Positions 3,134-19,753 of a stretch of DNA of 46,803 nucleotides are shown in pieces. The DNA comes from a virus. The notes under the pieces were generated by a model. It saw only the letters and a program-made list of their open reading frames with translations, was not told the DNA's origin and searched no databases. The stretch covers positions 1-46,803 of the IMG/VR virus record IMGVR_UViG_3300012920_010550, one strand, 5' to 3'. The position numbers and the translations under genes were made by a program. The stretch's first letter is position 1. Every line of letters starts with the position of its first letter.

Positions 3134-3403
3134 GTGTTACATAAAGATATGATTGACGGAATGACGCTAGATCAGATAATTGATTTAGCATATACAGAAT
3201 ACGAAGAAAGTTTACCAGATAGTGCAAACTTAGAAATAAAAATTGGAAGTGACGATGGCGGCCGCCTTATTGAATTTCATGTCGAAGGTAAGAAAAACGC
3301 AGAACAACTTCGAGAAGAATTACCCCCTAAATACAAAAAGATGCGAACAATTGTCATTTATAGATACGAACCAGATCCTAGCTTGGAGGATTTACTATAT
3401 TGA
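3134..3403 (+). CDS. Hypothetical protein
   Basis: An 89-aa acidic protein beginning with GTG at 3134, with a weak AGAGA upstream; an in-frame ATG at 3149 is an alternative. No recognisable motif or membrane segment. Its stop codon overlaps the TTG start of the phosphoesterase gene, so the two are translationally coupled. The Shine-Dalgarno TTGGAGGA for the next gene lies inside this coding region. Confidence 0.6.
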   Translation: MLHKDMIDGMTLDQIIDLAYTEYEESLPDSANLEIKIGSDDGGRLIEFHVEGKKNAEQLREELPPKYKKMRTIVIYRYEPDPSLEDLLY

Positions 3404-4074
3404 AAAGATTGATCATATCAGATACCCATATTGGATCTAAATTCTATAAAGAGAAAGAATTATATGATTTTTTGGATACTCAAGAATATGATCAACTTAT
3501 ACTAAACGGGGACATAATTGAATTTCTAAAAATTCCTCGATTTACAGAGGGTTGTATGAAAATTGCTAAAAAAATAGATTTTTCAAAAGAAATAATCTAT
3601 ATTATAGGTAATCATGATGTAGCTCTAAGAAATTTTTCAAACAAAGAAATGTTTGGAATAAAATTCAAAACTGAATATGAATTCGAAGATAATGGTAGAA
3701 AATTTAGAATAGAACACGGAGATAAATACGAAAAAGGAATTGTTCATTATAGGACAACAATGAAAATAATTTCTGTTTTTCAAGATTTTTTAGAAAGATA
3801 TTTAAATATAGATATATCGACCTGGTTCAATAATCTAAAAATAAACAAAAGAAAAATAAAAAAATTATGGGATATAATTGATTTAAACAACGATGTTGAT
3901 GTTTTGATCGTTGGACATACCCATATTCCAGAAGCCGTGATTTGGATCGATGAGAATGAAAAAATAAAAACATATGTCAATACAGGAGATTGGGTTTCTC
4001 ATGCAACTTATGTTGAAATAAATAATGGAGTTGTAAGATTGAGAAATTTTTTAAAAAAACAAAATATAGAATAG
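3400..4074 (+). CDS. LpxH-like calcineurin-fold metallophosphoesterase
   Basis: A 224-aa protein starting at TTG 3400, with GGAGGA about 9 bases upstream. All metallophosphoesterase motifs are present in order: DTH (Asp8, His10), NGDI (Asp38), GNHD (residues 70-73), HGD (106-108) and GHTH (172-175). The size, the compact insert between HGD and GHTH and the HGDKY motif resemble the UDP-2,3-diacylglucosamine hydrolase (LpxH/YbbF, COG2908) branch, which cleaves a pyrophosphate in lipid A synthesis. Other phosphodiesterases of the fold, including nucleic-acid enzymes, remain possible. The next gene encodes a lipid-hydroxylase-like membrane protein, which makes a lipid substrate attractive. Confidence 0.8.
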   Translation: MKRLIISDTHIGSKFYKEKELYDFLDTQEYDQLILNGDIIEFLKIPRFTEGCMKIAKKIDFSKEIIYIIGNHDVALRNFSNKEMFGIKFKTEYEFEDNGRKFRIEHGDKYEKGIVHYRTTMKIISVFQDFLERYLNIDISTWFNNLKINKRKIKKLWDIIDLNNDVDVLIVGHTHIPEAVIWIDENEKIKTYVNTGDWVSHATYVEINNGVVRLRNFLKKQNIE

Positions 4075-4097
4075 TTACTATTGACTGAGAGGTTGAG

Positions 4098-4547
4098 ATG
4101 GTTGTTTTTGTTTTTTTGTGGTTTATTGGATTTTTTTTCACCTCTCTTATGTTTTATTTGAATCATAGATTCGTTGGCCATGGTAAACTGGGTAAGTGGC
4201 CTCTTCTAAAATACATAAGAAAAATGCATATGATTCATCATAAGAACGATTATAATGAAGAAAGAAACAATTATTTGAGGCTACCAGCATGGTCGAAACT
4301 TTTATTTTTTATAACATTTCTGATGATTTCTATGATTTCTTTATCATTTGCGTGTGGGTACTTATGTTATGTATTTTATTACGAATGGTTGCATTACAAA
4401 ATGCACAACGATGATCATACGGGCTGGTGCTCCAAGCATCATTTCATCCACCACAGAGAATCTGCAAAACATAATTTTTCAGGCACGATGCCTTTTATAG
4501 ATAAATTATTTGGAACTTATTATAAAAAAAACTTGACAACAAGATAA
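4098..4547 (+). CDS. Fatty acid hydroxylase/sterol desaturase-like membrane protein
   Basis: A 149-aa integral membrane protein with hydrophobic segments at about residues 1-20 and 68-97. It has the histidine clusters of the non-haem di-iron hydroxylase superfamily: HRFVGH (23-28), HMIHH (44-48), HYKMH (99-103), HHFIHH (114-119) and HN (125-126). Members hydroxylate or desaturate acyl chains, sterols or carotenoids at the membrane using O2; the length is close to beta-carotene-hydroxylase-type small members. The start is ATG 4098 after GAGAGG. It lies 23 bases after the LpxH-like gene. Together they suggest host-lipid modification, which is inference; the acceptor lipid cannot be read from sequence. 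Confidence 0.75.
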   Translation: MVVFVFLWFIGFFFTSLMFYLNHRFVGHGKLGKWPLLKYIRKMHMIHHKNDYNEERNNYLRLPAWSKLLFFITFLMISMISLSFACGYLCYVFYYEWLHYKMHNDDHTGWCSKHHFIHHRESAKHNFSGTMPFIDKLFGTYYKKNLTTR

Positions 4548-4582: not shown

Positions 4583-4659
4583 GGGCTTATAGCTCAGTTG
4601 GTCAGAGCACCCGGCTCATACCCGGATTGTCCCAGGTTCGAGTCCTGGTAAGCCCACCA
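4583..4659 (+). tRNA. tRNA-CAU (Met or Ile2)
   Basis: A 77-base cloverleaf with encoded CCA. The acceptor GGGCTTA pairs perfectly with TAAGCCC. The D stem is GCTC/GAGC. The anticodon loop is CTCATAC with anticodon CAT, and the T stem is CCAGG/CCTGG with loop TTCGAGT. Two oddities are a C-A mismatch at the base of the anticodon stem (27-43) and C at position 38. The paired 1-72 argues against initiator tRNA. It may be elongator Met, or an Ile tRNA reading AUA after lysidine modification, which would suit an AT-rich genome. Confidence 0.93.
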
Positions 4660-5855: not shown

Positions 5856-6018
5856 AAAAATTTTGAAAAACTACTTAGTATTGGGAGTCGGAGTTATCTT
5901 CGGCTCTACAATCGCAACTATAGTGACATATGTGGTATTCTCAATCAGCCACGGTACCCCATCTGCTGCTAAGGTTTTGCAAATTCAAGAATGCCTGGAG
6001 GAAAAACTAAATGAGTAG
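5842..6018 (+). CDS. Small single-pass membrane protein (58 aa)
   Basis: ATG 5842 opens 58 codons, overlapping the ClpP end by 14 bases and the next start by 8. The N-terminus is basic (MKLFKKILKNY), followed by one hydrophobic helix at about residues 12-34 and a short acidic tail with one cysteine. The layout (Lys-rich cap, one transmembrane helix, cytosolic or periplasmic tail) matches small inner-membrane phage proteins. Function unknown. Overlap on both sides implies translational coupling, and GGAGG for the next gene lies within its 3' end. Confidence 0.65.
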   Translation: MKLFKKILKNYLVLGVGVIFGSTIATIVTYVVFSISHGTPSAAKVLQIQECLEEKLNE

Positions 6019-6466
6019 TGAAGAAGAAACAGCCGGCCCCACCATCATGGTTTCCGGTGGATTTGATCCAATTCATGTCGGTCATGTCCGCATGATTAGA
6101 GATGCAGCCAAATATGGCGATGTTATCGTTGTCGCCAATTCGGATGAGTGGCTTTTTCGCAAGAAGGGCTTCAATTTTATGGGTTTTAACGAAAGAAAAG
6201 AAATCCTTATGGCGATCAAAGGGGTGGTAGATGTTGTCGCGGTAGACGACAATGATGGTACTGTTTGTTCTGCATTATTAAAACATAAGCCCACTTATTT
6301 TGCTAACGGCGGTGATAGAACGTCCGATAATACTCCAGAAAAATTAGTCTGTGAAGAGTTGGGAATTAGAATGTTGTGGAACATAGGCGGTCAAAAAATT
6401 CAATCATCTTCAGATTTGGTAAAGACGGCGACTTCCCTAAAAGGCGACAAACATAGGGTAGGATAA
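6011..6466 (+). CDS. RfaE2/TagD-like nucleotidylyltransferase
   Basis: A 151-aa single-domain cytidylyltransferase-fold enzyme. Motifs are GGFDPIHVGH (16-25, with HxGH at 22-25), ERKEIL (61-66), ANGGDRT (98-104) and QSSSDLVK (131-138), which takes the place of the ISSTxxR signature. Such enzymes attach AMP or CMP to a sugar phosphate, glycerol phosphate or cofactor precursor; the closest resemblance is the C-terminal domain of RfaE/HldE (heptose-1-phosphate adenylyltransferase). GGAGG at 5997-6001 fixes the ATG 6011 start. It could make a second activated sugar for the glycosyltransferases downstream, but the substrate is not determined. Confidence 0.82.
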   Translation: MSSEEETAGPTIMVSGGFDPIHVGHVRMIRDAAKYGDVIVVANSDEWLFRKKGFNFMGFNERKEILMAIKGVVDVVAVDDNDGTVCSALLKHKPTYFANGGDRTSDNTPEKLVCEELGIRMLWNIGGQKIQSSSDLVKTATSLKGDKHRVG

Positions 6467-8785: not shown

Positions 8786-9064
8786 ATGTTTAACGAAAGA
8801 GAACTATTGGAAAAGAAATTGACTGAATCTGAAGATACAGAAAGTGAACTGAAAACTCACATTATCAATTATGTTGGTCAAAAATTGAAACCCGAAGGGG
8901 GACTAATCAATGTAGAAATGGTAATTTCCGTACTAGCAAGTGAATTTCCAGATATCGTTCTGGCACTAGCAGAGGAAAATTTTATTAGAGGCTATACTCA
9001 AGGACTTCATGATGCAGACAATCCACCAGTGATGCCTCAAGGTACACCTGAAAATGGCGAATGA
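8786..9064 (+). CDS. Hypothetical protein (92 aa)
   Basis: A 92-aa acidic, largely helical protein immediately after a consensus promoter, with AGGAG ahead of ATG 8786. It contains the segment LALAEENFIRGYTQGLHDA and a Pro-rich C-terminus. No known domain is recognised. Its 3' end overlaps the metalloprotease gene by 11 bases. Confidence 0.65.
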   Translation: MFNERELLEKKLTESEDTESELKTHIINYVGQKLKPEGGLINVEMVISVLASEFPDIVLALAEENFIRGYTQGLHDADNPPVMPQGTPENGE

Positions 9065-9749
9065 TTTTATAACGGACTATTTAAAAGAGTCTCTAAGAAG
9101 ATCTAAAGATCAGCAGAGGGAGTATAATTTGGCCGGTAAAATAAATCTCTACATCAAAGATCCTCTGACCAGAGAAGTGGATGTTCGAAATGTTATGGAA
9201 AAAATAAGTTCTACTGTACCTCCTCATCTTTTGGGCGAAATAGATGCAATTTTTGTTGGCATGTTTGATGAATTCGAAGAGATGCAAACCAACGCGATGT
9301 TCAAAGATGGTGCAATTTATCTAAGTAATGACCAAGATGACGAACAGGATATGGTAGATGATATTATCCATGAAATCGCCCACTCTATAGAGTTGCCCTA
9401 TGGGCACATAATTTATGGAGATGGAAGAATTCAAGATGAATTTTTAGCAAAAAGAAAAAAGTTATTTGAAATTCTAAAAGAAGAAAAACTAAATCCAAAC
9501 AAGAAACTGTTTATGGATCCAGAATATTCGAAAGAATTAGATTTTTATTTATATGAAGATGTGGGTTATGATAGGCTGAACTTTATTTGCTCTTCTTATG
9601 GTCTTTTTACTTCTGCATATTCTGCCACTTCTTTGAGGGAATATTTTGCAAATGGTTTTGAATATTTCTTTTTGGACGACAGACAATATATGTCAAAAAT
9701 ATGTCCACAACTTTACAAAAAAATAGAGGAAATATATGATGATCAATGA
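9054..9749 (+). CDS. Zincin metalloprotease
   Basis: A 231-aa protein with a gluzincin-like zinc site: HEIAH at residues 106-110 and a likely third ligand Glu196 in SLREYFANGFEYFF, spaced ~85 residues downstream. The arrangement resembles anthrax-lethal-factor-type (ATLF) catalytic domains and small phage metallopeptidases. There is no signal peptide, so it should act in the host cytoplasm or be packaged. Possible roles are cleavage of a host protein or of a virion precursor; the target is unknown. ATG 9054 lies within the preceding gene. Confidence 0.8.
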   Translation: MANDFITDYLKESLRRSKDQQREYNLAGKINLYIKDPLTREVDVRNVMEKISSTVPPHLLGEIDAIFVGMFDEFEEMQTNAMFKDGAIYLSNDQDDEQDMVDDIIHEIAHSIELPYGHIIYGDGRIQDEFLAKRKKLFEILKEEKLNPNKKLFMDPEYSKELDFYLYEDVGYDRLNFICSSYGLFTSAYSATSLREYFANGFEYFFLDDRQYMSKICPQLYKKIEEIYDDQ

Positions 9750-10899: not shown

Positions 10900-12162
10900 A
10901 TGACAGACAAAAAAAAGATTTTCGTAATCTCTGACCACCCTCTTGCTCCGTCTGGGGTAGGTACTCAAACAAAATACGTTATCGAAGCCCTTCTAAATAC
11001 AGGAAGATATAAGGTGGTTTGTTTAGGTGGAGCAGTGAAGCATAAAGACTACAAGCCACAAAAAGTAGAAGGATGGGGAGATGATTGGGTTATTTATCCA
11101 GTCAAAGGCTACGGAACTCAAGAGATGGTAAGGTCAGCTCTTTTCAACGAAAAGCCAGATATCCTTTGGTTTATGACGGACCCTAGATTTTATGGTTGGT
11201 TGTGGTCTATTGAAAATGAGGTAAGAAAACATATTCCAATGGTATATTACCATGTTTGGGATAATTATCCTTATCCAAAATATAATAAGCAAAACTATGC
11301 ATCTACGGATGTAATTGCTTCTATTTCAAAGGTAACACACGATATTGTAAATAATGTAGCGCCAGAAGTAGAAAATCATTATGTTCCTCATGCTGTGGAT
11401 ACCTCTATTTTTCATCCTTTTCCCGAAGAAGATATTGAAAAACTAAAATTGCAAAACTTCAATATTGATGATGATAGGGTAATTTTCTTCTGGAATAATA
11501 GAAATGCTAGGCGTAAAATGAGCGGCTCCCTGATCTATTGGTTCAACGAATTTGCAGAAAAAGTAGGCCCGGAAAATGTAAAGCTAGTTATGCATACCGA
11601 CCCAAAAGATCCGAACGGGCAAGATCTAGGAGTAATCTTGGATAACCTTGGGGCCACTGATGGTCGCATTGTCTTATCTACTAAGAAAATTTCTCCTCAA
11701 GCACTAGCAGCAATGTACAATATGGCAGACTGTACAATCAATATTTCCGATGCAGAAGGCTTTGGTTTGGCAACTTTGGAGTCCTTATCTTGTCAAACTC
11801 CAATTATTGTAAACATGACAGGGGGTCTACAGGAGCAAGTCACAGACGGAGAAGAGTGGTTTGGTATTGGTATCGAACCATCTTCCAAGGCAGTAATTGG
11901 ATCACAAAACGTCCCTTACATCTATGAAGATAGAATCTCTAAAGAAGATTTCATTAGTTCTTTGACAAAATTTTATGAAATGTCGAAAGAAGAAAGAAAG
12001 GTTCTTGGAATGAAAGGCCGAAATCATGTTGCAAAAAACTATAACTTTGAAAATTTCAAAAAGCAATGGATTGAGCTAATCGACTCTGTTGTTGAAAATC
12101 ACGGGTCTTGGGAAACGAGACAAAATTATAAGCCTTGGGCTTTTATGGAGATCACAAAATGA
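10900..12162 (+). CDS. GT-B glycosyltransferase (family 4-like)
   Basis: A 420-aa GT-B enzyme. The N-terminal domain begins ISDHPLAPSGVGTQTKYV, the acceptor-side glycine loop. The C-terminal donor-binding domain holds EGFGLATLESLSCQTPIIV at about residues 285-303, the E-x7-E nucleotide-sugar motif, preceded by HAVDTSIFHPF (about 163-173). It transfers a sugar from a nucleotide donor to an unknown acceptor in the cytoplasm. AAGAGG lies 5 bases before ATG 10900. It is the first gene of the sugar operon, and its stop overlaps the next start (ATGA). Confidence 0.9.
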   Translation: MTDKKKIFVISDHPLAPSGVGTQTKYVIEALLNTGRYKVVCLGGAVKHKDYKPQKVEGWGDDWVIYPVKGYGTQEMVRSALFNEKPDILWFMTDPRFYGWLWSIENEVRKHIPMVYYHVWDNYPYPKYNKQNYASTDVIASISKVTHDIVNNVAPEVENHYVPHAVDTSIFHPFPEEDIEKLKLQNFNIDDDRVIFFWNNRNARRKMSGSLIYWFNEFAEKVGPENVKLVMHTDPKDPNGQDLGVILDNLGATDGRIVLSTKKISPQALAAMYNMADCTINISDAEGFGLATLESLSCQTPIIVNMTGGLQEQVTDGEEWFGIGIEPSSKAVIGSQNVPYIYEDRISKEDFISSLTKFYEMSKEERKVLGMKGRNHVAKNYNFENFKKQWIELIDSVVENHGSWETRQNYKPWAFMEITK

Positions 12163-13436
12163 AAAAAAAGGTAATTCTAAAAGGGCCTGTATTATCACAA
12201 TCTGGATATGGAGAGCAAGCAAGATTTGCTCTTCGTGCTTTGAGAACAAGGGAGGATATTTTTGATATCTATATTGTACCAACAGCGTGGGGTCAAACTG
12301 GCTGGGTAAGTGAGGTATCAGAAGAAAGATTGTGGGTAGATAACAAAATCAAAGAAACTCATATCTACATCAATAGTGGAGGAAAATTTGATATTTCTGT
12401 GCAGGTAACTATTCCAAACGAATGGGAAAATCTTGCAACAGTAAATGTTGGATATACTGCCGGAATTGAAACTACAAAGGTGGCCCCAATTTGGCTGCAA
12501 AAAGCTAATCAAATGGATAATATTATCGTAGTATCCAATCACTCTAAGGAAGTTTACGAAAACACAGTATATCAAGGAAAAAATAAAAACACTGGTCAAA
12601 TTGTAGATATCTTGTGTACTACTCCAATTGACGTTGTAAATTATCCAGTAAAAGACTTCAAAAAAGAAAAAATGGATCTGAATCTTGAATATGATTTTAA
12701 TTATCTGGCCATTTCTCAATGGGGTCCAAGAAAGAATTTCGATAACCTCATCAAATGGTTTTTGGAGGAAAATTTTGATCAAGAGGTTGGTTTAGTTCTA
12801 AAGACATCCTTTAGGAATAATAGTATTATTGACAGAGAGCACACCCGTAAAAGATTAGAAGCCTTACTTGAGGCTCATGGTGGTGAAAATCGAAAATGCA
12901 AATTGTACCTTGTTCACGGCGACTTGACGCCCGAAGAGCTAACCGGTTTATATCAACATAAAAAAATCAAAGCTCTTATTTCAACTACACACGGAGAAGG
13001 GTACGGTCTTCCGCTTTTCGAAGCGGCGTATAATGGATTGCCAGTAATTGTTCACGGGTGGTCTGGCCAAAAAGACTTTTTGTATGTTCCGGATCCTCGT
13101 CGAGAGGGTAAAAATAAGCCAATGTTCGCATCCGTAGAATATGAACTAAAAAATGTACAACCAGCAGCTATGTGGGAAGGGGTAATTCAGCATGATTCGC
13201 AGTGGGCTTTTCCGAAAGAAGCTTCTTTCAAACGCCGACTTAGAGAAGTTAGAAGTGAATATAGTAGATTCAAAAAGAATGCTAAAAAGCTTCAAACATA
13301 TTTGATCAACAATTTTACAGAAGAAAAGCTTTATTCAGAATTTTGTGAATTAGTTACAAAAACAAAAAAAGGAATTGAAGAAGACCAATATATCGGGTCT
13401 GTTCTTAGGGACACGGTAGTTTCAAGTCTAATTTAG
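12159..13436 (+). CDS. GT-B glycosyltransferase (second)
   Basis: A 425-aa GT-B enzyme distinct from its neighbour. It has the N-terminal loop LSQSGYGEQARFALRAL, AISQWGPRKNFDNLIKWF at mid-protein (linker/donor domain) and THGEGYGLPLFEAAYNGLP at about 276-294 as the donor E-x7-E motif. I chose ATG 12159 (4-base overlap with the preceding gene, GGAG at 12147-12150) over an in-frame ATG 24 bases upstream. Paired GT-B enzymes of this kind are common in marine myoviruses, often with unknown acceptors. Donor unknown; UDP-ManNAc3NAcA made by this operon is one candidate. Confidence 0.88.
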   Translation: MKKKVILKGPVLSQSGYGEQARFALRALRTREDIFDIYIVPTAWGQTGWVSEVSEERLWVDNKIKETHIYINSGGKFDISVQVTIPNEWENLATVNVGYTAGIETTKVAPIWLQKANQMDNIIVVSNHSKEVYENTVYQGKNKNTGQIVDILCTTPIDVVNYPVKDFKKEKMDLNLEYDFNYLAISQWGPRKNFDNLIKWFLEENFDQEVGLVLKTSFRNNSIIDREHTRKRLEALLEAHGGENRKCKLYLVHGDLTPEELTGLYQHKKIKALISTTHGEGYGLPLFEAAYNGLPVIVHGWSGQKDFLYVPDPRREGKNKPMFASVEYELKNVQPAAMWEGVIQHDSQWAFPKEASFKRRLREVRSEYSRFKKNAKKLQTYLINNFTEEKLYSEFCELVTKTKKGIEEDQYIGSVLRDTVVSSLI

Positions 13437-13445
13437 GAAAAAGAA

Positions 13446-14102
13446 ATGGATCTAGGTATAATTCAGATAACTAATAAAAATACTAAAAGAGAAGATCTTA
13501 TGATTAGTGAGATCATTCCGAAATGTATTGAAATAACAGGCGGAAAATACACTCTGGTATCTCCAGAGAATAAAAACCTGGAAGAAGAAGTAACAAAAAG
13601 AGGTGGAACTTTTTCTCTATATACGGCATGGGACAAGGATATGTCTAGAAAATGGAGACAGGGCATCCAATCAAGAAAAGAAGAGTGGGTAGCCTTTTTT
13701 GCCGATGATATCCTGCCAGACGAAAACTGGTTATCGGAGATGTCTCTATTCTTAGAAAAAAAAATACCGGGTCAATATGGATTTAGACTAACAGACGAAA
13801 ATGGCAAAAGGCATGAGTTTGGAGAAGATTGGATGCAGTTCCCAAATAGAATGTTAAACCTCTCTCACAGGCCTCTAGCCTACGATATAACTACAGGAGA
13901 GATAGAACAGTCTCCCACGTCATATGTAGCAAATTGTGTAGTCCATAAAGATGTTTTAGAGATGATAGAACCATTTGGAATTTACGGAGCAGCCCCAGAT
14001 GTCTCGTGGAGTTTCGCAATTAGGAGCTGTGGCTTCCAAATAGGGTTCAATCCGATTGCCAGAGCTTATCATCTTGGAGATAGGAGTGATAATAGAAAAT
14101 GA
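13446..14102 (+). CDS. GT-A (GT2-like) glycosyltransferase
   Basis: A 218-aa GT-A-like protein. FFADDILPDENWL at about residues 80-92 carries the DxD-type metal/nucleotide-sugar site. The later segment SYVANCVVHKDVLEMIEPFG with APDVSWSFAIRSCG resembles the acceptor/catalytic region of GT2 enzymes. It lacks the usual longer N-terminal strand set (family usually ~250-300 aa), so it is a short member. The last codons overlap the acetyltransferase start by 4 bases. Likely adds one sugar in the product glycan. Confidence 0.75.
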   Translation: MDLGIIQITNKNTKREDLMISEIIPKCIEITGGKYTLVSPENKNLEEEVTKRGGTFSLYTAWDKDMSRKWRQGIQSRKEEWVAFFADDILPDENWLSEMSLFLEKKIPGQYGFRLTDENGKRHEFGEDWMQFPNRMLNLSHRPLAYDITTGEIEQSPTSYVANCVVHKDVLEMIEPFGIYGAAPDVSWSFAIRSCGFQIGFNPIARAYHLGDRSDNRK

Positions 14103-14491
14103 TACACGATACAGCCAATGTTTATAATTCTGCTGAAATTGGAGAAGGTACAAAAATTGGTGCCTTTGCTGAAATTGGTAAAGATGTAATTATTGGAAAA
14201 AATTGCTCTATTGGATGTGGAGCCTTTATTCCTGAAAATGTAATTGTTGAAGATAATGTATTTATCGGACCTCATGTCGTTTTTACAAATGATAAGTATG
14301 CCCCCTCTCGCGGAGCGTGGAGGCAAGAACCTCCAACAGTGGTCGGCTCCGGTTCTTCGATTGGTGCAAATGCTACAATTTTGCCTAACTTGGTGATTGG
14401 AAAAGATTGTAAAATTGGCGCAGGAAGTGTCGTAACAAAATCTCTAGAAGACAAGTCGGTAGCTTTTGGCAATCCAGCGAGGGTAGTATGA
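14099..14491 (+). CDS. wbpD: WbpD/WlbB-like N-acetyltransferase
   Basis: A 130-aa left-handed beta-helix acyltransferase with hexapeptide repeats (IGEGTKIGAFAEIG, IGKNCSIGCGAFI, VEDNVFIGPHVVFTND, IGANATILPNLVIG). The end, IGAGSVVTKSLED followed by GNPAR, is the standard acetyltransferase finish. The FTND element and PTVVGSGSSIGANATI are typical of UDP-GlcNAc3NA N-acetyltransferases of the Wbp/Wlb route (acetyl-CoA donor, C3 amino acceptor). It is shorter than most (~190 aa). The role is supported by four pathway partners in the same operon. Both ends overlap neighbours by 4 bases. Confidence 0.82.
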   Translation: MIHDTANVYNSAEIGEGTKIGAFAEIGKDVIIGKNCSIGCGAFIPENVIVEDNVFIGPHVVFTNDKYAPSRGAWRQEPPTVVGSGSSIGANATILPNLVIGKDCKIGAGSVVTKSLEDKSVAFGNPARVV

Positions 14492-15300
14492 TTAGGGCAA
14501 CAGTAGGACTTCCTATGTATAGGAGTAAAAATATTGCAGAGTTATCTCTAGAAAGCCTGTGTGCACAAAAAAATATTGATTTCGAGTGGGAGTTGTTGAT
14601 TATCGAAGAAGAAGAGGATTCATTAGGTAAGGAAAATATTAGTTCTTTTTCTAAAAGACTTTCAGATGTTGGATGTACAAAGATAGAATATTTTAGTATC
14701 AAGGGCTGGATTCCCCTTTCTATGAAATGGTATCATCTATCTCAAAATGCTTCTAATACTAGCGAATGTTTTCTCTTGAAGGCCGCCGATTGTTATTCGC
14801 AGCCATATAGATTGAAAGAAACGTATGATATCTTTTCGAAAAATGAGGGTATCGACTGGGTACAGGCAAAGAAAGGATATTTTTATGATATTGCTTCCGA
14901 ATCAGTTTCAAGATTTAATCATGATCTCTGTTTCACCATGACAGCCGGCGGAAGAAGATCTCACCCCTGTGCTCTCAATATGGCAATTAGGACAAATTTA
15001 TTAAAAAGAATACCACCAACAAAGGTAAGAAGAGGTGTCGATGGCCATATTTATTCAGAACTGCAATTAATCAAGGGAGAGCCTTTGAACGTGGGCTGGT
15101 TAGAATCAGATAATTGGAAATTGGGATTGGATACACATGGTTTGAATAATATTTCTCGCCTTCGTGGTAGAATGATCGTCAAAAATAAACCACCATTTGA
15201 GGAAACAACAGCCACTATATCAGATATTGTCCCTAGTCAGATTCAAGATTTCTTAAATAAACTTAGAGTTGATGCTCTTGAGCATAAGTATAAAATTTAG
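14488..15300 (+). CDS. Probable GT-A glycosyltransferase (fourth)
   Basis: A 270-aa protein with a GT2-like beginning (RATVGLPMYRSKNIAELSLE), a nucleotide-binding-like beta strand (ELLIIEEEED) and a DxD-like region at FLLKAADCYSQPYRL (about 93-107). HPCALNMAIRTNLLKRIPP and RGVDGHIYSEL lie where GT2 acceptor-site segments fall. The assignment rests on overall pattern, so a divergent or inactive enzyme is possible. It overlaps the acetyltransferase gene by 4 bases and sits between sugar-pathway genes. Confidence 0.65.
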   Translation: MIRATVGLPMYRSKNIAELSLESLCAQKNIDFEWELLIIEEEEDSLGKENISSFSKRLSDVGCTKIEYFSIKGWIPLSMKWYHLSQNASNTSECFLLKAADCYSQPYRLKETYDIFSKNEGIDWVQAKKGYFYDIASESVSRFNHDLCFTMTAGGRRSHPCALNMAIRTNLLKRIPPTKVRRGVDGHIYSELQLIKGEPLNVGWLESDNWKLGLDTHGLNNISRLRGRMIVKNKPPFEETTATISDIVPSQIQDFLNKLRVDALEHKYKI

Positions 15301-15317
15301 TTTTTTTGGAGAGAGGA

Positions 15318-15914
15318 ATGACTAGAGAAAAAGATAAAAACTGCTATAATGAAATTTATAAATCTGGTGGCTACGGAGGTGCATATTTAAAAAAAGCAAA
15401 AAATGTACCAATTTATAGTACTTTATGGGAGAAAGTTGCAAATTTAGTATCAAATTCTGGATATTCAAAAGTGATTGATTTCGGCTGCGGCCCAGGACAA
15501 TTTGCGGAAATCATGAATTCTATAGATTCCGATGTAAAGTATGTTGGTTATGATTTTTCTGATGTAGCAATCGCGCGCGCCCAATCAAAAAAAATTTCAA
15601 ATTGTGAGTTTTCGGTAAGAGATTTATATAAATATTCCTTAGATGAGGGTATTGAGGAAAATCACGCATATGTGTGTTTGGAAGTCCTGGAGCATTTAGA
15701 GGGGGACCTATCTTTATTAGAAAAAATTCCAAAGGGAAAAACTTTATTTTTTAGCGTCCCGAATTATGATAGTACCGGTCACGTTAGGGTTTTCAAAAAT
15801 CAAAAAGAAGTAACAGATAGATATGGTCATATGTTCGAGCTGGAACATCAGAAAACTATTTCATGGAATAATTCAAAAAATAAAATTTTTATTTATAGTG
15901 CAATAAAAAGATGA
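15318..15914 (+). CDS. SAM-dependent methyltransferase
   Basis: A 198-aa class I methyltransferase. Motif I is VIDFGCGPGQFAEIM; the acidic strand is YVGYDFSDVAI; motif IV/post-II is AYVCLEVLEHLEGDLSLLEK, followed by LFFSVPNYDSTGHVRVF. The pattern is that of sugar or small-molecule O/N-methyltransferases in glycan clusters. ATG 15318 is preferred over TTG 15306 because GGAG at 15308-15311 sits 6 bases before it. In this operon it may methylate the nucleotide sugar or the transferred glycan. It overlaps the epimerase gene by 4 bases. Confidence 0.83.
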   Translation: MTREKDKNCYNEIYKSGGYGGAYLKKAKNVPIYSTLWEKVANLVSNSGYSKVIDFGCGPGQFAEIMNSIDSDVKYVGYDFSDVAIARAQSKKISNCEFSVRDLYKYSLDEGIEENHAYVCLEVLEHLEGDLSLLEKIPKGKTLFFSVPNYDSTGHVRVFKNQKEVTDRYGHMFELEHQKTISWNNSKNKIFIYSAIKR

Positions 15915-16915
15915 AAATCTTGAGCGTAATAGGGACTCGCCCACAATACATAAAAATAAAACCAGTTTATGATTATTGTCTTCTCAATAAAATTGAACAC
16001 AAAATCATAGATACTATGCAACACTATTCAAACAACGTCTCAAAAAATATTATACAAGACCTTGAAATGAACATAGATTATTCCTTATCACCAGATACTA
16101 GGGGAGAAATTCCCTTTATATCAAGTTGTTTATTATCTTTGGAGAATTTATTTTCAAAAGAAAAGCCAGATTATGTATTGGTTTATGGAGATACTAATTC
16201 TACTTTTTGTGCATCATTTGTTTGCTATAAAATGAGAATTCCTGTCGGTCACGTCGAGGCAGGTCTACGATGCAACGATAAGAAAGTTCCTGAAGAGATA
16301 AACAGAATTTTTTCTGATATTATTTCTGATTTAAAGTTTTGTCCTTCTGTGGAGGCAATGAACAATTTTCCGGACGGCATATATAATGGAGATCTTGAAT
16401 ACGAACTATTGAATAAAATAAATCCAGAAATAACTATTTCAAATCACGCTGTCATGACGATTCATAGACAATCTAATACGAATATTGAAAAAATGTCAAA
16501 AATTTTATCTTTTTGTGAAAAGCTACCGAATAAAATAGAATTTTATGTACATCACAGAACAAAGCCAATTCTGAAAAACTTGACTATTCCCGACAATATT
16601 ATTCTAAAAGATTCGTGTAACTATTCCACTATGGTAGATCGTCTGTCTTCTTGTAGGTATGTAATAACTGATTCCGGAGGAATTCAAAAAACAGTCCCTT
16701 TTTTTGGTAAAAAGGCGTTAGTTGTGAGAGATGAAATAGAGTGGAAGAAGACAGAACAAAAAAATTATGTAAAGAAGTGTACTTTTGAACAAGAAAACAT
16801 AGAATGGCTATTGACACAGGACCTGAAACGTGATAAACTATTTTATATGAGTGGGAATAGTAGTCCTTCTGAAATTATTTTTAATTCAATAGAGAGACTA
16901 TTTATATCGAAATAG
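15911..16915 (+). CDS. wbpI: UDP-sugar 2-epimerase (WbpI/WecB family)
   Basis: A 334-aa protein with the signatures of non-hydrolysing UDP-GlcNAc 2-epimerases: GTRPQYIK (8-15), YGDTNSTF, GHVEAGLRC, PEEINRIFSDIISD, MTIHRQSN, HHRTKP and TDSGGIQKT. WecB makes UDP-ManNAc; WbpI/WlbD makes UDP-ManNAc3NAcA from UDP-GlcNAc3NAcA. Sequence alone does not separate them for me, but the four companion genes favour WbpI. It is slightly short (family ~360-380 aa), missing part of the central VGDVMYD-like region (here NGDLEYE). ATG 15911 overlaps the preceding stop. Confidence 0.85.
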   Translation: MKILSVIGTRPQYIKIKPVYDYCLLNKIEHKIIDTMQHYSNNVSKNIIQDLEMNIDYSLSPDTRGEIPFISSCLLSLENLFSKEKPDYVLVYGDTNSTFCASFVCYKMRIPVGHVEAGLRCNDKKVPEEINRIFSDIISDLKFCPSVEAMNNFPDGIYNGDLEYELLNKINPEITISNHAVMTIHRQSNTNIEKMSKILSFCEKLPNKIEFYVHHRTKPILKNLTIPDNIILKDSCNYSTMVDRLSSCRYVITDSGGIQKTVPFFGKKALVVRDEIEWKKTEQKNYVKKCTFEQENIEWLLTQDLKRDKLFYMSGNSSPSEIIFNSIERLFISK

Positions 16916-16923
16916 GAGATAAA

Positions 16924-18012
16924 ATGATTCCTTTATTTGATTTATCTAGAGTGGTAAGTCCTTATAAAAGCGAACTAGAAAAGAGCATAAGTGACTGTAT
17001 TTCAACAGCACGATTCATCAATGGACCCAGTGTTCTTGAATTTGAAAATAATCTAAAAAAATATTTAGGATCCAAGAACGTCATGGGCGTATCTAGCGGT
17101 ACGGATGCTCTTTTGACAATTTTTATGTCCCTAGGCTTGAGTCCGGGTGATGAGGTTTTAGTTACGCCGTTTACTTTTGTAGCTTCCGCTACCAGTATTG
17201 CAAGAGCTGGCTTATCTCCTGTTCTAGTTGATTTAGGTGAAGATTCTTTTCATCCAACTATTGAACAGTATGAGAAAAATATTACTTCCAAGACAAAGGC
17301 AATCCTGTGTGTTCATTTATTTGGAGAACCAAATGATTTATTGGAATTGAGAAAATTTTGTGACTCTAAAAATCTACTTTTGATAGAGGATTGTGCCCAA
17401 TCTCTTGGCTCAACTTGGAATTCTAAAAAAGTAGGAACTTATGGAGACGCAGCTGCTTTCTCATTCTTCCCAGCAAAAAATCTTGGATGCTTCGGCGATG
17501 GTGGCGCAATTTGCACTGATAACGAAGATATTTTTGAAACTGCCAAAATTGTAAAGTCTCACGGGGCAAAAGAAAAATACAATACAATTATGATGGGTGG
17601 CAATTTTAGATTAGATACTATTCAAGCTGGAATATTAAATATTCTTTTACCGCAGCTCGAATGCTGGATTGAAAAAAGAACACAAAATGCTAAATACTAT
17701 ACAGATAATTTATCGCACTTAGATAATCTAACATTACCAAAAAACACCCCAGGCCACTCTTGGAACCAATACACTCTAAGGTTAGAGAATAGAGATGATC
17801 TAAAGAAGTATTTAGATAACAAGAAAATAGGAAACGCCGTATATTACCCAATTCCATTGCATAGGCAAAGGCTCTTTTATAAAAGCGAGACATTGCCAAA
17901 TACAGAAAAAAGATGCTCAGAAGTGTTATCCATTCCTATATATCCTGGCCTTACAGAAAAAGAAAGATCCTTAGTTGTGGAGTCGATTTTAGAATTTATG
18001 GAGAAAAAATGA
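16924..18012 (+). CDS. wbpE: DegT/DnrJ-family sugar aminotransferase (WbpE-like)
   Basis: A full-length 362-aa PLP enzyme of the DegT/DnrJ/EryC1/StrS family. SSGTDALL (about 59-66) binds PLP phosphate, LLIEDCAQSLGS holds the PLP-pyridine Asp, and FSFFPAKNLGCFGDGGA carries the Schiff-base Lys185. It transfers an amino group from glutamate to a 3-keto nucleotide sugar; with WlbA next door the substrate should be UDP-3-keto-GlcNAcA, as for WbpE/WlbC. AGGAG precedes ATG 16924, and the stop overlaps the wlbA start (ATGA). Confidence 0.9.
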   Translation: MIPLFDLSRVVSPYKSELEKSISDCISTARFINGPSVLEFENNLKKYLGSKNVMGVSSGTDALLTIFMSLGLSPGDEVLVTPFTFVASATSIARAGLSPVLVDLGEDSFHPTIEQYEKNITSKTKAILCVHLFGEPNDLLELRKFCDSKNLLLIEDCAQSLGSTWNSKKVGTYGDAAAFSFFPAKNLGCFGDGGAICTDNEDIFETAKIVKSHGAKEKYNTIMMGGNFRLDTIQAGILNILLPQLECWIEKRTQNAKYYTDNLSHLDNLTLPKNTPGHSWNQYTLRLENRDDLKKYLDNKKIGNAVYYPIPLHRQRLFYKSETLPNTEKRCSEVLSIPIYPGLTEKERSLVVESILEFMEKK

Positions 18013-18941
18013 AAAGATTTGGACTAATCGGTGCGGCAGGATATATCGCACCAAGACATATGCAAGCTATCAAAGAAACGGGAAACACCCTTGAGGTTGC
18101 CTTGGATCTTCATGATTCGGTAGGTATTTTAGACAGGTACCACCCGGATGCATCATTTTTTACTGAAATTGAAAGGTTCGATCGACACATTGATAAGTTG
18201 CGCCGGCGAGGCACCGGTCTTGATTATATTTCTATTTGTTCTCCAAATTACTTGCACGATTCTCATATAAGAATGGCTCTTAGGAATGGTTGTGGTGTAG
18301 TTTGCGAAAAGCCTACCGTACTAAATCCTGAAAATTTAGAACTTTTAGAAATATTAGAAAAAGAAAACGGGAAAAAAATAAACAACATCTTACAACTAAG
18401 ACTTCATGAATCGATAATTCGACTAAAAGAAGAAATAGAAAAAGATAAAATTTATGATATTGATTTATCATACATAACATCTAGAGGGTTGTGGTATCAT
18501 CATTCTTGGAAGGGAGATATTCAAAAATCGGGAGGACTGGCAACTAACATAGGGATTCATTTTTTTGATATGTTGATGTGGATTTTTGGATCCGAATTAG
18601 AAAATAAAATATACTTGTCAGAAAGGGACGCAATGTCTGGTTATTTGAGACTAGAGAGGGCAAATGTCAAATGGTTTTTGAGCTGTAATGAAAAATATGT
18701 CCCAGAAAAAGAAAGAAAAATGGGACAGAAAACACACAGATCTCTAAAGATTGGAGAAAGTTCTTTTGATTTTAGCAAAGGATTTACAGATTTGCATACG
18801 AAAAGTTATGAGCATATTTTGTCTGGCAAAGGTTTCGGAATAGAAGAAACAAAAAAAGCAATCAATTTAGCATCCAAAATAAGAACTTCTGAAATATCAG
18901 AGATGGATGACGACATTCATCATTTCTTGGAGAAAAAGTGA
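18009..18941 (+). CDS. wlbA: UDP-GlcNAcA 3-dehydrogenase (WlbA/WbpB)
   Basis: A 310-aa Gfo/Idh/MocA-fold NAD oxidoreductase. The Rossmann start GLIGAAGYIAPRHMQAIKET, ICSPNYLHDSHIRMAL, catalytic-region EKP (Lys101) and the block YITSRGLWYHHSWKGDIQKS then GLATNIGIHFFDML are the specific signature I know from WlbA. GFTDLHTKSYEHILSGKGFG closes the catalytic half. It oxidises the C3 hydroxyl of UDP-GlcNAcA to the 3-keto sugar used by the aminotransferase. ATG 18009 has GGAG 5 bases upstream and overlaps the previous stop. This is the most diagnostic gene of the pathway. Confidence 0.93.
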   Translation: MKRFGLIGAAGYIAPRHMQAIKETGNTLEVALDLHDSVGILDRYHPDASFFTEIERFDRHIDKLRRRGTGLDYISICSPNYLHDSHIRMALRNGCGVVCEKPTVLNPENLELLEILEKENGKKINNILQLRLHESIIRLKEEIEKDKIYDIDLSYITSRGLWYHHSWKGDIQKSGGLATNIGIHFFDMLMWIFGSELENKIYLSERDAMSGYLRLERANVKWFLSCNEKYVPEKERKMGQKTHRSLKIGESSFDFSKGFTDLHTKSYEHILSGKGFGIEETKKAINLASKIRTSEISEMDDDIHHFLEKK

Positions 18942-19753
18942 AATTAGGAATCATTGGTAACGGATTTGTAGGAGCAGCAATCTACAATGGGCTTAGGGAT
19001 CATTACGATATTTTTGTCTACGATAAAGATTCATCTAAGTCTTGCAATTCTATGAAAGAAATAAACGAAAAAGCAGATGCAATATTTGTTTGTGTTCCAA
19101 CCCCCATGAGTCAAGCCGGCGAAATAGATTGTACAATAATCAATGAGACGATCAAAGATTTAGATTCGGAAAAATTATTAATTATAAAATCCACAATTAC
19201 GCCCGCCGCCGCAAAAACCATTCTAGAGAAAAATGATCACAAAATGGTATTCAATCCAGAATTCCTGACTGAAAGAACTGCCAAAGAAGATTTTCTAAAT
19301 CCTTCTAGAATTGTTTTGGGCGGAAATGAAAAGGATGTAAAAGAGGTAAAAAGTTTATATGAGAAAGTCTTCCCAGATGTAAAATATATAGAAACAGACC
19401 ACAAGACAGCATGCTTCATAAAGTATGTCTCAAATTGTTTTTCAGCAGTCAAGATATCTATTATGAATGAATTCCGACAAATGGCAGACAGTGATAATCT
19501 AAATTGGCAAGATACTTTGGATGGCATGTTGGCATCCGGATGGGTAAACCCTATGCACACCATGGTGCCAGGACCCGATGGTAGCTTGGGTTTTGGGGGA
19601 AAATGTTTTCCCAAAGATATCAATGCCTTTATTAGTTATGCCACCAAAGTAGGAGTAGATCCAAAAGTGTTGCGGTCATCTTGGAAAAAAAATCTAGAAG
19701 TTAGAGAAAATAAAGATTGGCTAAAAATCCCCGGTGCTGTTTCTAAAAAATAA
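18938..19753 (+). CDS. wbpA: UDP-GlcNAc/UDP-glucose 6-dehydrogenase-like (WbpA role), short form
   Basis: A 271-aa nucleotide-sugar dehydrogenase. Rossmann GNGFVG (7-12), VCVPTPMS, KSTITP, FNPEFLTERTA, the central helix with FIKYVSNCFSAVKISIMNE, and catalytic Cys223 in FGGKCFPKD are all present. The ~150-residue C-terminal UDP-binding domain of the usual 400-440-aa enzymes is missing; the stop follows ~48 residues after Cys223. Short forms occur in phages, but how they bind UDP is unclear. Within this operon it would make UDP-GlcNAcA from host UDP-GlcNAc. The start is GTG 18938, GGAG 5 bases upstream. Confidence 0.86.
   Translation: MKLGIIGNGFVGAAIYNGLRDHYDIFVYDKDSSKSCNSMKEINEKADAIFVCVPTPMSQAGEIDCTIINETIKDLDSEKLLIIKSTITPAAAKTILEKNDHKMVFNPEFLTERTAKEDFLNPSRIVLGGNEKDVKEVKSLYEKVFPDVKYIETDHKTACFIKYVSNCFSAVKISIMNEFRQMADSDNLNWQDTLDGMLASGWVNPMHTMVPGPDGSLGFGGKCFPKDINAFISYATKVGVDPKVLRSSWKKNLEVRENKDWLKIPGAVSKK

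Follow-up and report, generated by a model that had tools for sequence, protein, structure and literature searches.

A gene for a PlcP-like metallophosphoesterase (MPE) and a gene for a di-iron membrane hydroxylase of the fatty acid hydroxylase type (FAH) lie side by side in the DNA of a marine tailed phage, and this pair is most likely a phage auxiliary metabolic module. Our preferred reading, to which we give a probability of roughly 0.45, is that the two enzymes form a two-step module for the remodelling of membrane lipids. If this is true, the combination of a phage PlcP-like enzyme with a linked enzyme of the FAH type puts membrane renovation under viral control, and the lipid A annotation that phage proteins bear may be a misnomer. 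The pair, which is small, can be tested in laboratory strains.

The gene pair and its surroundings

The stretch of DNA that was analysed (the window), a fragment from a virus record, is 46.8 kb long and has a GC content of about 35% over the first 20 kb. Its gene content, which includes a baseplate wedge protein, a Clp-type head-maturation protease and a PhoH-like protein, identifies it as a contractile-tailed bacterial virus. An earlier note on this DNA had described two adjacent genes, for a calcineurin-fold phosphoesterase and a di-iron hydroxylase, and both reading frames are present exactly where it had placed them (Table 1), with exactly 23 bases in between. The two enzyme classes were recovered as well: MPE matches the Pfam families Metallophos_2 (48.8 bits, cut-off 27) and Metallophos (43.1 bits, cut-off 21.5), and FAH matches FA_hydroxylase (PF04116; 51.8 bits, gathering cut-off 31). 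The start codon of MPE is preceded by GGAGG and overlaps the stop of a small reading frame, the family of which is conserved upstream of MPE in the window's clade and matches none of the known families above cut-off. On the other side, a tRNA-Met gene forms the boundary of the pair and is probably not part of the module.

Table 1. Features of the gene pair and its flanks in the window
Feature	Position	Strand	Product length	Start codon
Small ORF upstream of MPE	3134..3403	+	89 aa	GTG
PlcP-like calcineurin-fold metallophosphoesterase (MPE)	3400..4074	+	224 aa	TTG
FA_hydroxylase/Scs7p-like di-iron membrane hydroxylase (FAH, type I)	4098..4547	+	149 aa	ATG
tRNA-Met (CAT), just downstream of FAH	4583..4659	+		

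Both genes are under strong purifying selection. Synonymous sites are saturated in most pairs, and for those pairs in which dS was measurable the dN/dS relative to the window was 0.045-0.16 for MPE (3 of 8 pairs) and 0.09 (NG86) or 0.15-0.26 (YN00) for FAH (2 of 7 pairs). Moreover, the synteny of the two genes recurs in independent viral contigs, and the observation is therefore more than chance.

Some other genes of the window deserve mention. A cytidylyltransferase/RfaE-like protein (6011-6466) is encoded a few genes downstream of the pair and is conserved across the clade. A surface-glycan cluster (10900-19753) comprises two GT4-type glycosyltransferases, a methyltransferase, a UDP-GlcNAc 2-epimerase, a DegT aminotransferase and a UDP-glucose dehydrogenase. 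The two glycosyltransferases were considered as Agt partners and rejected, as they gave just a short generic match and are not Agt orthologues. Finally, the C-terminal 45 residues of the protein encoded at 9054-9749 match two metallopeptidase families (M90 and ATLF), below both cut-offs.

Genetic association of MPE and FAH

The pairing that was noticed in the window extends to other viruses. Scans of IMG/VR with FAH alignments picked out a close (type I) FAH in 13 viral contigs, and 11 of these also carry MPE, the exceptions being the divergent contigs G002 and G003. The two genes are in tandem in the window's clade, with 19-43 bases between them, and also in L063, where they overlap slightly. 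L028, L029 and L025 have them on opposite strands and in another genome context, the neighbours being ThyX/dUTPase/glycosylase genes in L028 and glycosylase genes in L029. The linkage is thus based on at least two independent lineages, represented by the tandem and the opposite-strand arrangements. At the same time, FAH is missing from L013, L006, L026 and L058, all of them near relatives in which the gene order is the same, and L013, a near relative of the window, does have MPE; FAH has therefore been lost or gained repeatedly beside MPE. A separate observation concerns L051 (6676-6849), where the FAH that adjoins MPE looks truncated or frame-broken; an intact copy is found at the same place in L029.

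The association was quantified in a control set of 48 PhoH-selected contigs of at least 40 kb (of 80 loci). In this set 11 contigs carry MPE, a count that leaves out weak matches (E ~1e-4 to 1e-6, nearly all in frames of ~1,050 aa), and 12 carry a PF04116 gene. MPE was present in 7/7 contigs with a type I FAH and in 4/41 without (p 4e-6), where type I was called by A4-profile scores and the split into types I and II was made after the counts had been seen. Without the window's clade, a type I FAH is found in 1/4 MPE contigs versus 0/37 of the others (p 0.098). When any PF04116 gene is counted, the numbers are 7/11 with MPE versus 5/37 without (p 0.002), and 1/4 versus 5/37 (p 0.48) once the window's clade is removed. 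The pairing of MPE and FAH is not random, but the small number of independent lineages makes the statistics weak outside the window's clade.

These data bear directly on the foremost alternative, namely that both proteins are lipid enzymes that act independently, MPE being a general phospholipid or lipid-phosphate enzyme of marine phages and FAH a separate accessory neighbour in a few lineages. As many as 64 of the 77 distinct MPE loci have no type I FAH within 3 kb (13 have one), the two contigs G002 and G003 have a type I FAH without MPE, the genes are ~15 kb apart in G022, and a second type of FAH is unlinked to MPE. Nevertheless, wherever a contig from the FAH scans has MPE (11 contigs) the two genes are at most 2.3 kb apart, in tandem in eight and on opposite strands in three, and we consider independent action somewhat unlikely.

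Distribution and neighbourhood of MPE

MPE is common in marine phages, being encoded by 138 of the 250 candidate stretches in the viral collection, and in most cases FAH is absent. The counts of distinct loci were made after nine loci that repeated contigs or stretches already counted had been dropped. Since most carriers lack a type I FAH, MPE works without it. Some PF04116 gene is present in 19 of the 50 MPE-bearing records and adjoins MPE in 11 of them; the other eight genes comprise the distant type I gene of G022 and seven of type II. The latter belong to a second PF04116 hydroxylase family of marine phage contigs, with the motif FSFHxxxHH...WHYDHHMGxNQ (L232 and L234-L244, 12 virus records). 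This family forms a clade of its own (support 100/99), is not linked to MPE and occurs in 5/48 of the PhoH-selected contigs.

The neighbours of MPE are very diverse and include genes for DNA repair and for chaperonins as well as unassigned genes; a cpn60/TCP-1-type chaperonin is encoded close downstream of MPE in 11 loci (L019 7608-9233, L020, L031 and others). Three further associations were looked for and rejected. A phosphate-starvation package is contradicted by the count of PstS-type transporters, which is 0 in 50 of the distinct MPE records, and the arrangement in phage Mosig (see below) is not general. Likewise, a wider lipid gene set around MPE was dismissed with FA_desaturase in 0/26 records, and an electron donor for FAH of the phage's own with ferredoxin (Fer2) in 0/26 MPE records.

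The neighbourhood also raises the question whether MPE could be a nucleotide or nucleic-acid phosphodiesterase, for instance in cyclic-nucleotide counter-defence or in DNA metabolism, with FAH as an unrelated gene. Many MPE loci adjoin genes of DNA metabolism (ThyX, dUTPase/NT5C, HhH-GPD, Fpg and DNA glycosylases), the protein scores 43.7 bits with the YfcE family, which is below the cut-off of 56.25 and above its scores with the LpxH models, and residues 1-82 match the PADLOC candidate model PDC-S10 (28.9 bits). However, MPE is encoded on the strand opposite to the adjoining DNA-metabolism operons, its similarity over the full length is to PlcP, and the match to PDC-S10 is generic because the PlcP of Sinorhizobium meliloti matches that model too (21.4 bits). 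A role in defence, for which this weak and partial match common to PlcP was the sole support, was rejected. Moreover, the solved folds nearest to the AlphaFold model of MPE (mean pLDDT 86.8, 32-row alignment) are those of LpxH (Foldseek E ~1e-12; VIA-align Z 16.7-18.6), ahead of Vps29 (Z 14.7), YfcE (14.4) and DNA-polymerase subunits (~14), while the lists of fold matches contain no PlcP structure. A role in nucleic-acid metabolism thus appears improbable, and the order of the folds upholds the lipid direction, though not the lipid A substrate, that the earlier note had proposed.

The hydroxylase

FAH consists of the hydroxylase domain alone. Histidines 23, 28, 44, 47, 48, 99, 103, 115, 118 and 119, ten in all, make up four boxes and are invariant in 12/12 relatives, in agreement with the initial description of a multi-histidine, di-iron protein. 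The predicted structure (mean pLDDT 87.0) has Scs7p as its sole match in the PDB (4zr0 and 4zr1, TMq 0.71-0.75), with Z 12.7 and an rmsd of 2.9 over 143 aligned residues (residues 1-146), and a 12-row FAH profile run against the PDB sequences likewise retrieved Scs7p alone (E 2.9e-5). Scs7p carries a cytochrome b5 domain; a fused domain of this kind is absent from FAH. A search of 50,697 phage records gave 0 matches to FAH at E 1e-5, the scan of cellular genomes gave a single match of 21% identity in Nocardia, and the plasmid matches are 22-29% identical.

PF04116 also takes in sterol desaturases, and the carotenoid hydroxylases are related to it. FAH could therefore be imagined as an oxygenase of the carotenoid or hopanoid/sterol type instead of an acyl-chain hydroxylase, and some of the plasmid matches are indeed named 'sterol desaturase family protein'. 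Considering that Scs7p is the only match in the PDB and that the NCBIfam matches with an E value of 1 or lower include no carotenoid-hydroxylase model, we regard this as quite improbable.

MPE is PlcP-like and differs from LpxH

MPE has the motifs SDTH, GD, GNHD, HGD and GHTH, which fit the metal-binding calcineurin-type pattern DxH, GD, GN, HGD and GHxH. Among the characterised enzymes that were compared it is closest by sequence to PlcP. In BLASTP it scores 77.4 bits with S. meliloti PlcP, 60.8 with P. aeruginosa PlcP and 30.0 with E. coli LpxH, the identity over the full length being 29% to the former PlcP and 27% to PA3219. A profile of the viral MPEs gives 78.9 and 71.0 bits with the two PlcPs, versus 13.1 with E. 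coli LpxH, 52.6 with Acinetobacter LpxH, 12.7 with YfcE and 16.1 with SbcD. Among 72,556 plasmid records, which include chromosome-sized ones, a Sinorhizobium PlcP ranked first, and the 33 records retrieved by the window's MPE share none with the 23 records retrieved by E. coli LpxH (at least 32% identity). Beyond the plasmid records searched a closer cellular family could exist.

As to the anchors, the one from S. meliloti (L095) was taken as SMc00171/plcP because of its location, close to genes for an AHL synthase and a LuxR protein that we take to be sinI and sinR, and because of an identity of 47% to the P. aeruginosa anchor. Next after the latter comes a glycosyltransferase gene, as in PA3219-PA3218. 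PA3219 is reported to be a phospholipase that is 46% identical to S. meliloti PlcP (PMC8528852).

Several residues separate the families. GNH is found in 77/77 viral MPEs and Y[VIA]NxGDW in 76/77, and both are common to the PlcP-type rows, whereas all five LpxH rows of the alignment have GNR. Arg80 of PaLpxH is reported to bind lipid X and Arg81 of HiLpxH to be required for activity (PMC5016852); the corresponding position is His72 in the MPE of the window. One feature of PlcP is lacking, namely the PYWS[LF]S-like stretch of the helical insert, which is found in 7/8 PlcP-type bacterial rows and is absent from the viral clade. This absence and the mere 27-29% identity to PlcP count against the proposed module.

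In a maximum likelihood tree rooted on YfcE, the branch of which is long, the viral MPEs, the PlcPs and other phage proteins group together (99/98). The SbcD row was left out of the first tree, and the long-branch vL086 and megaphage rows were left out of the second. The rooting on YfcE is weak: with YfcE and SbcD as outgroups the AU tests rejected none of the pairings viral+PlcP (p 0.59), viral+LpxH (0.22) and PlcP+LpxH (0.38); with three groups that lack a good outgroup the tree therefore cannot tell which two are sisters. The mean path from the viral MPEs to PlcP is 5.5 versus 9.7 to LpxH. As the AU tests leave every pairing in place and the path lengths favour PlcP, we use the name 'PlcP-like': the viral MPEs are a separate viral clade that resembles PlcP without being proven PlcP.

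These data also settle what is left of the 'LpxH-type' label that MPE had been given, of which the fold stands and the family does not. A role of MPE as a divergent form of LpxH in the supply or alteration of lipid A precursors, with FAH hydroxylating the lipid A chains, is very improbable indeed: although LpxH is the nearest solved fold and phage relatives are annotated as UDP-2,3-diacylglucosamine hydrolase or diphosphatase, MPE misses the cut-offs of both LpxH equivalogs by more than 100 bits (NF003743: 28.6 versus 134; TIGR01854: 16.2 versus 190.35), where the true LpxHs of E. coli and Acinetobacter pass with 237-389 bits, 77/77 viral MPEs have His where LpxH has its lipid-X-binding Arg, and in the tree the five LpxH rows are a clade apart (100/98) that contains no viral row.

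Proposed role in membrane renovation

We propose that the pair acts on the membrane of the infected cell in two steps. MPE would be a cytosolic, membrane-facing, PlcP-like phosphodiesterase at the inner membrane, which cuts the phosphate head group off host phospholipids to give diacylglycerol and a phospho-alcohol. FAH, as a membrane-embedded di-iron enzyme, would hydroxylate a lipid of that membrane, either on an acyl chain or on the head group. Its electrons would probably come from redox partners of the host, because ferredoxin was found in none of the 26 records. Together the two enzymes would change the membrane of the infected cell, and phosphate and backbone might be freed for the virus. 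What the data establish are the genes, their families and folds, the conserved catalytic residues, the purifying selection and the linkage; the substrates, the direction of the flow, a single path shared by MPE and FAH and a benefit to the phage are presumed here. A more far-reaching version, in which marine tailed phages carry their own two-gene membrane renovation with a PlcP-like phospholipase C that strips head groups and an Scs7p-like hydroxylase that modifies acyl chains, so that the virus and not the host phosphate regulon rewrites the membrane, we consider unlikely.

PlcP-driven phospholipid replacement is described as a widespread means of phosphorus saving by marine bacteria (PMC4796936), and membrane lipids are reported to affect phage attachment (PMC9938194). 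Phage genes of the MPE superfamily are already known, under the annotation UDP-2,3-diacylglucosamine hydrolase or diphosphatase. In the literature searched, which excluded subscription journals, we found neither the PlcP-like reading of a phage MPE and its pairing with an Scs7p-like hydroxylase nor plcP as an auxiliary metabolic gene. The portion of PMC7029224 that was consulted does not mention the phosphoesterase, and the papers that came up on fatty acid hydroxylases among phage auxiliary metabolic genes concern, to judge by their titles, an algal-virus pangenome and cytochrome b5 in giant viruses.

Comparison with known systems

PlcP of S. meliloti and PA3219 resemble MPE in the similarity over the full length, the metal motifs, GNHD with its His, HGD, and YxNxGDW near the C-terminus. 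PlcP is longer (270-281 aa versus 224 aa), and the viral proteins form their own clade without the PYWS[LF]S-like stretch. An adjoining Agt glycosyltransferase or PstS was not found with the viral MPEs. LpxH has the fold, the metal core and the helical insert in common with MPE and differs in its equivalog models, both of which MPE fails, and in the lipid-binding Arg, for which MPE has His.

The MPE superfamily is also represented in marine or freshwater myoviruses, by proteins of Pelagibacter phage Mosig EXVC030M and Synechococcus phage S-SRM01 that carry the lipid A annotation mentioned above. They are just 26-27% identical to MPE, are found in the tree among the bacterial PlcPs and outside the window's clade, and have no FA_hydroxylase gene annotated alongside. 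In Mosig (L089 6254-9484) the distant MPE is flanked on one side by the gene for a putative phosphate ABC transporter and on the other by that for a 2OG-Fe(II) oxygenase, and a protein with an Asp_Arg_Hydrox domain adjoins the transporter; hydroxylases of other families are thus encoded near a similar phosphoesterase.

For FAH the closest known counterpart is Scs7p, the yeast ceramide very-long-chain fatty acid hydroxylase. With 149 aa FAH has no room for a fused cytochrome b5 domain and the identity is 23-24%, whereas the fold and the histidine boxes of the two proteins are alike.
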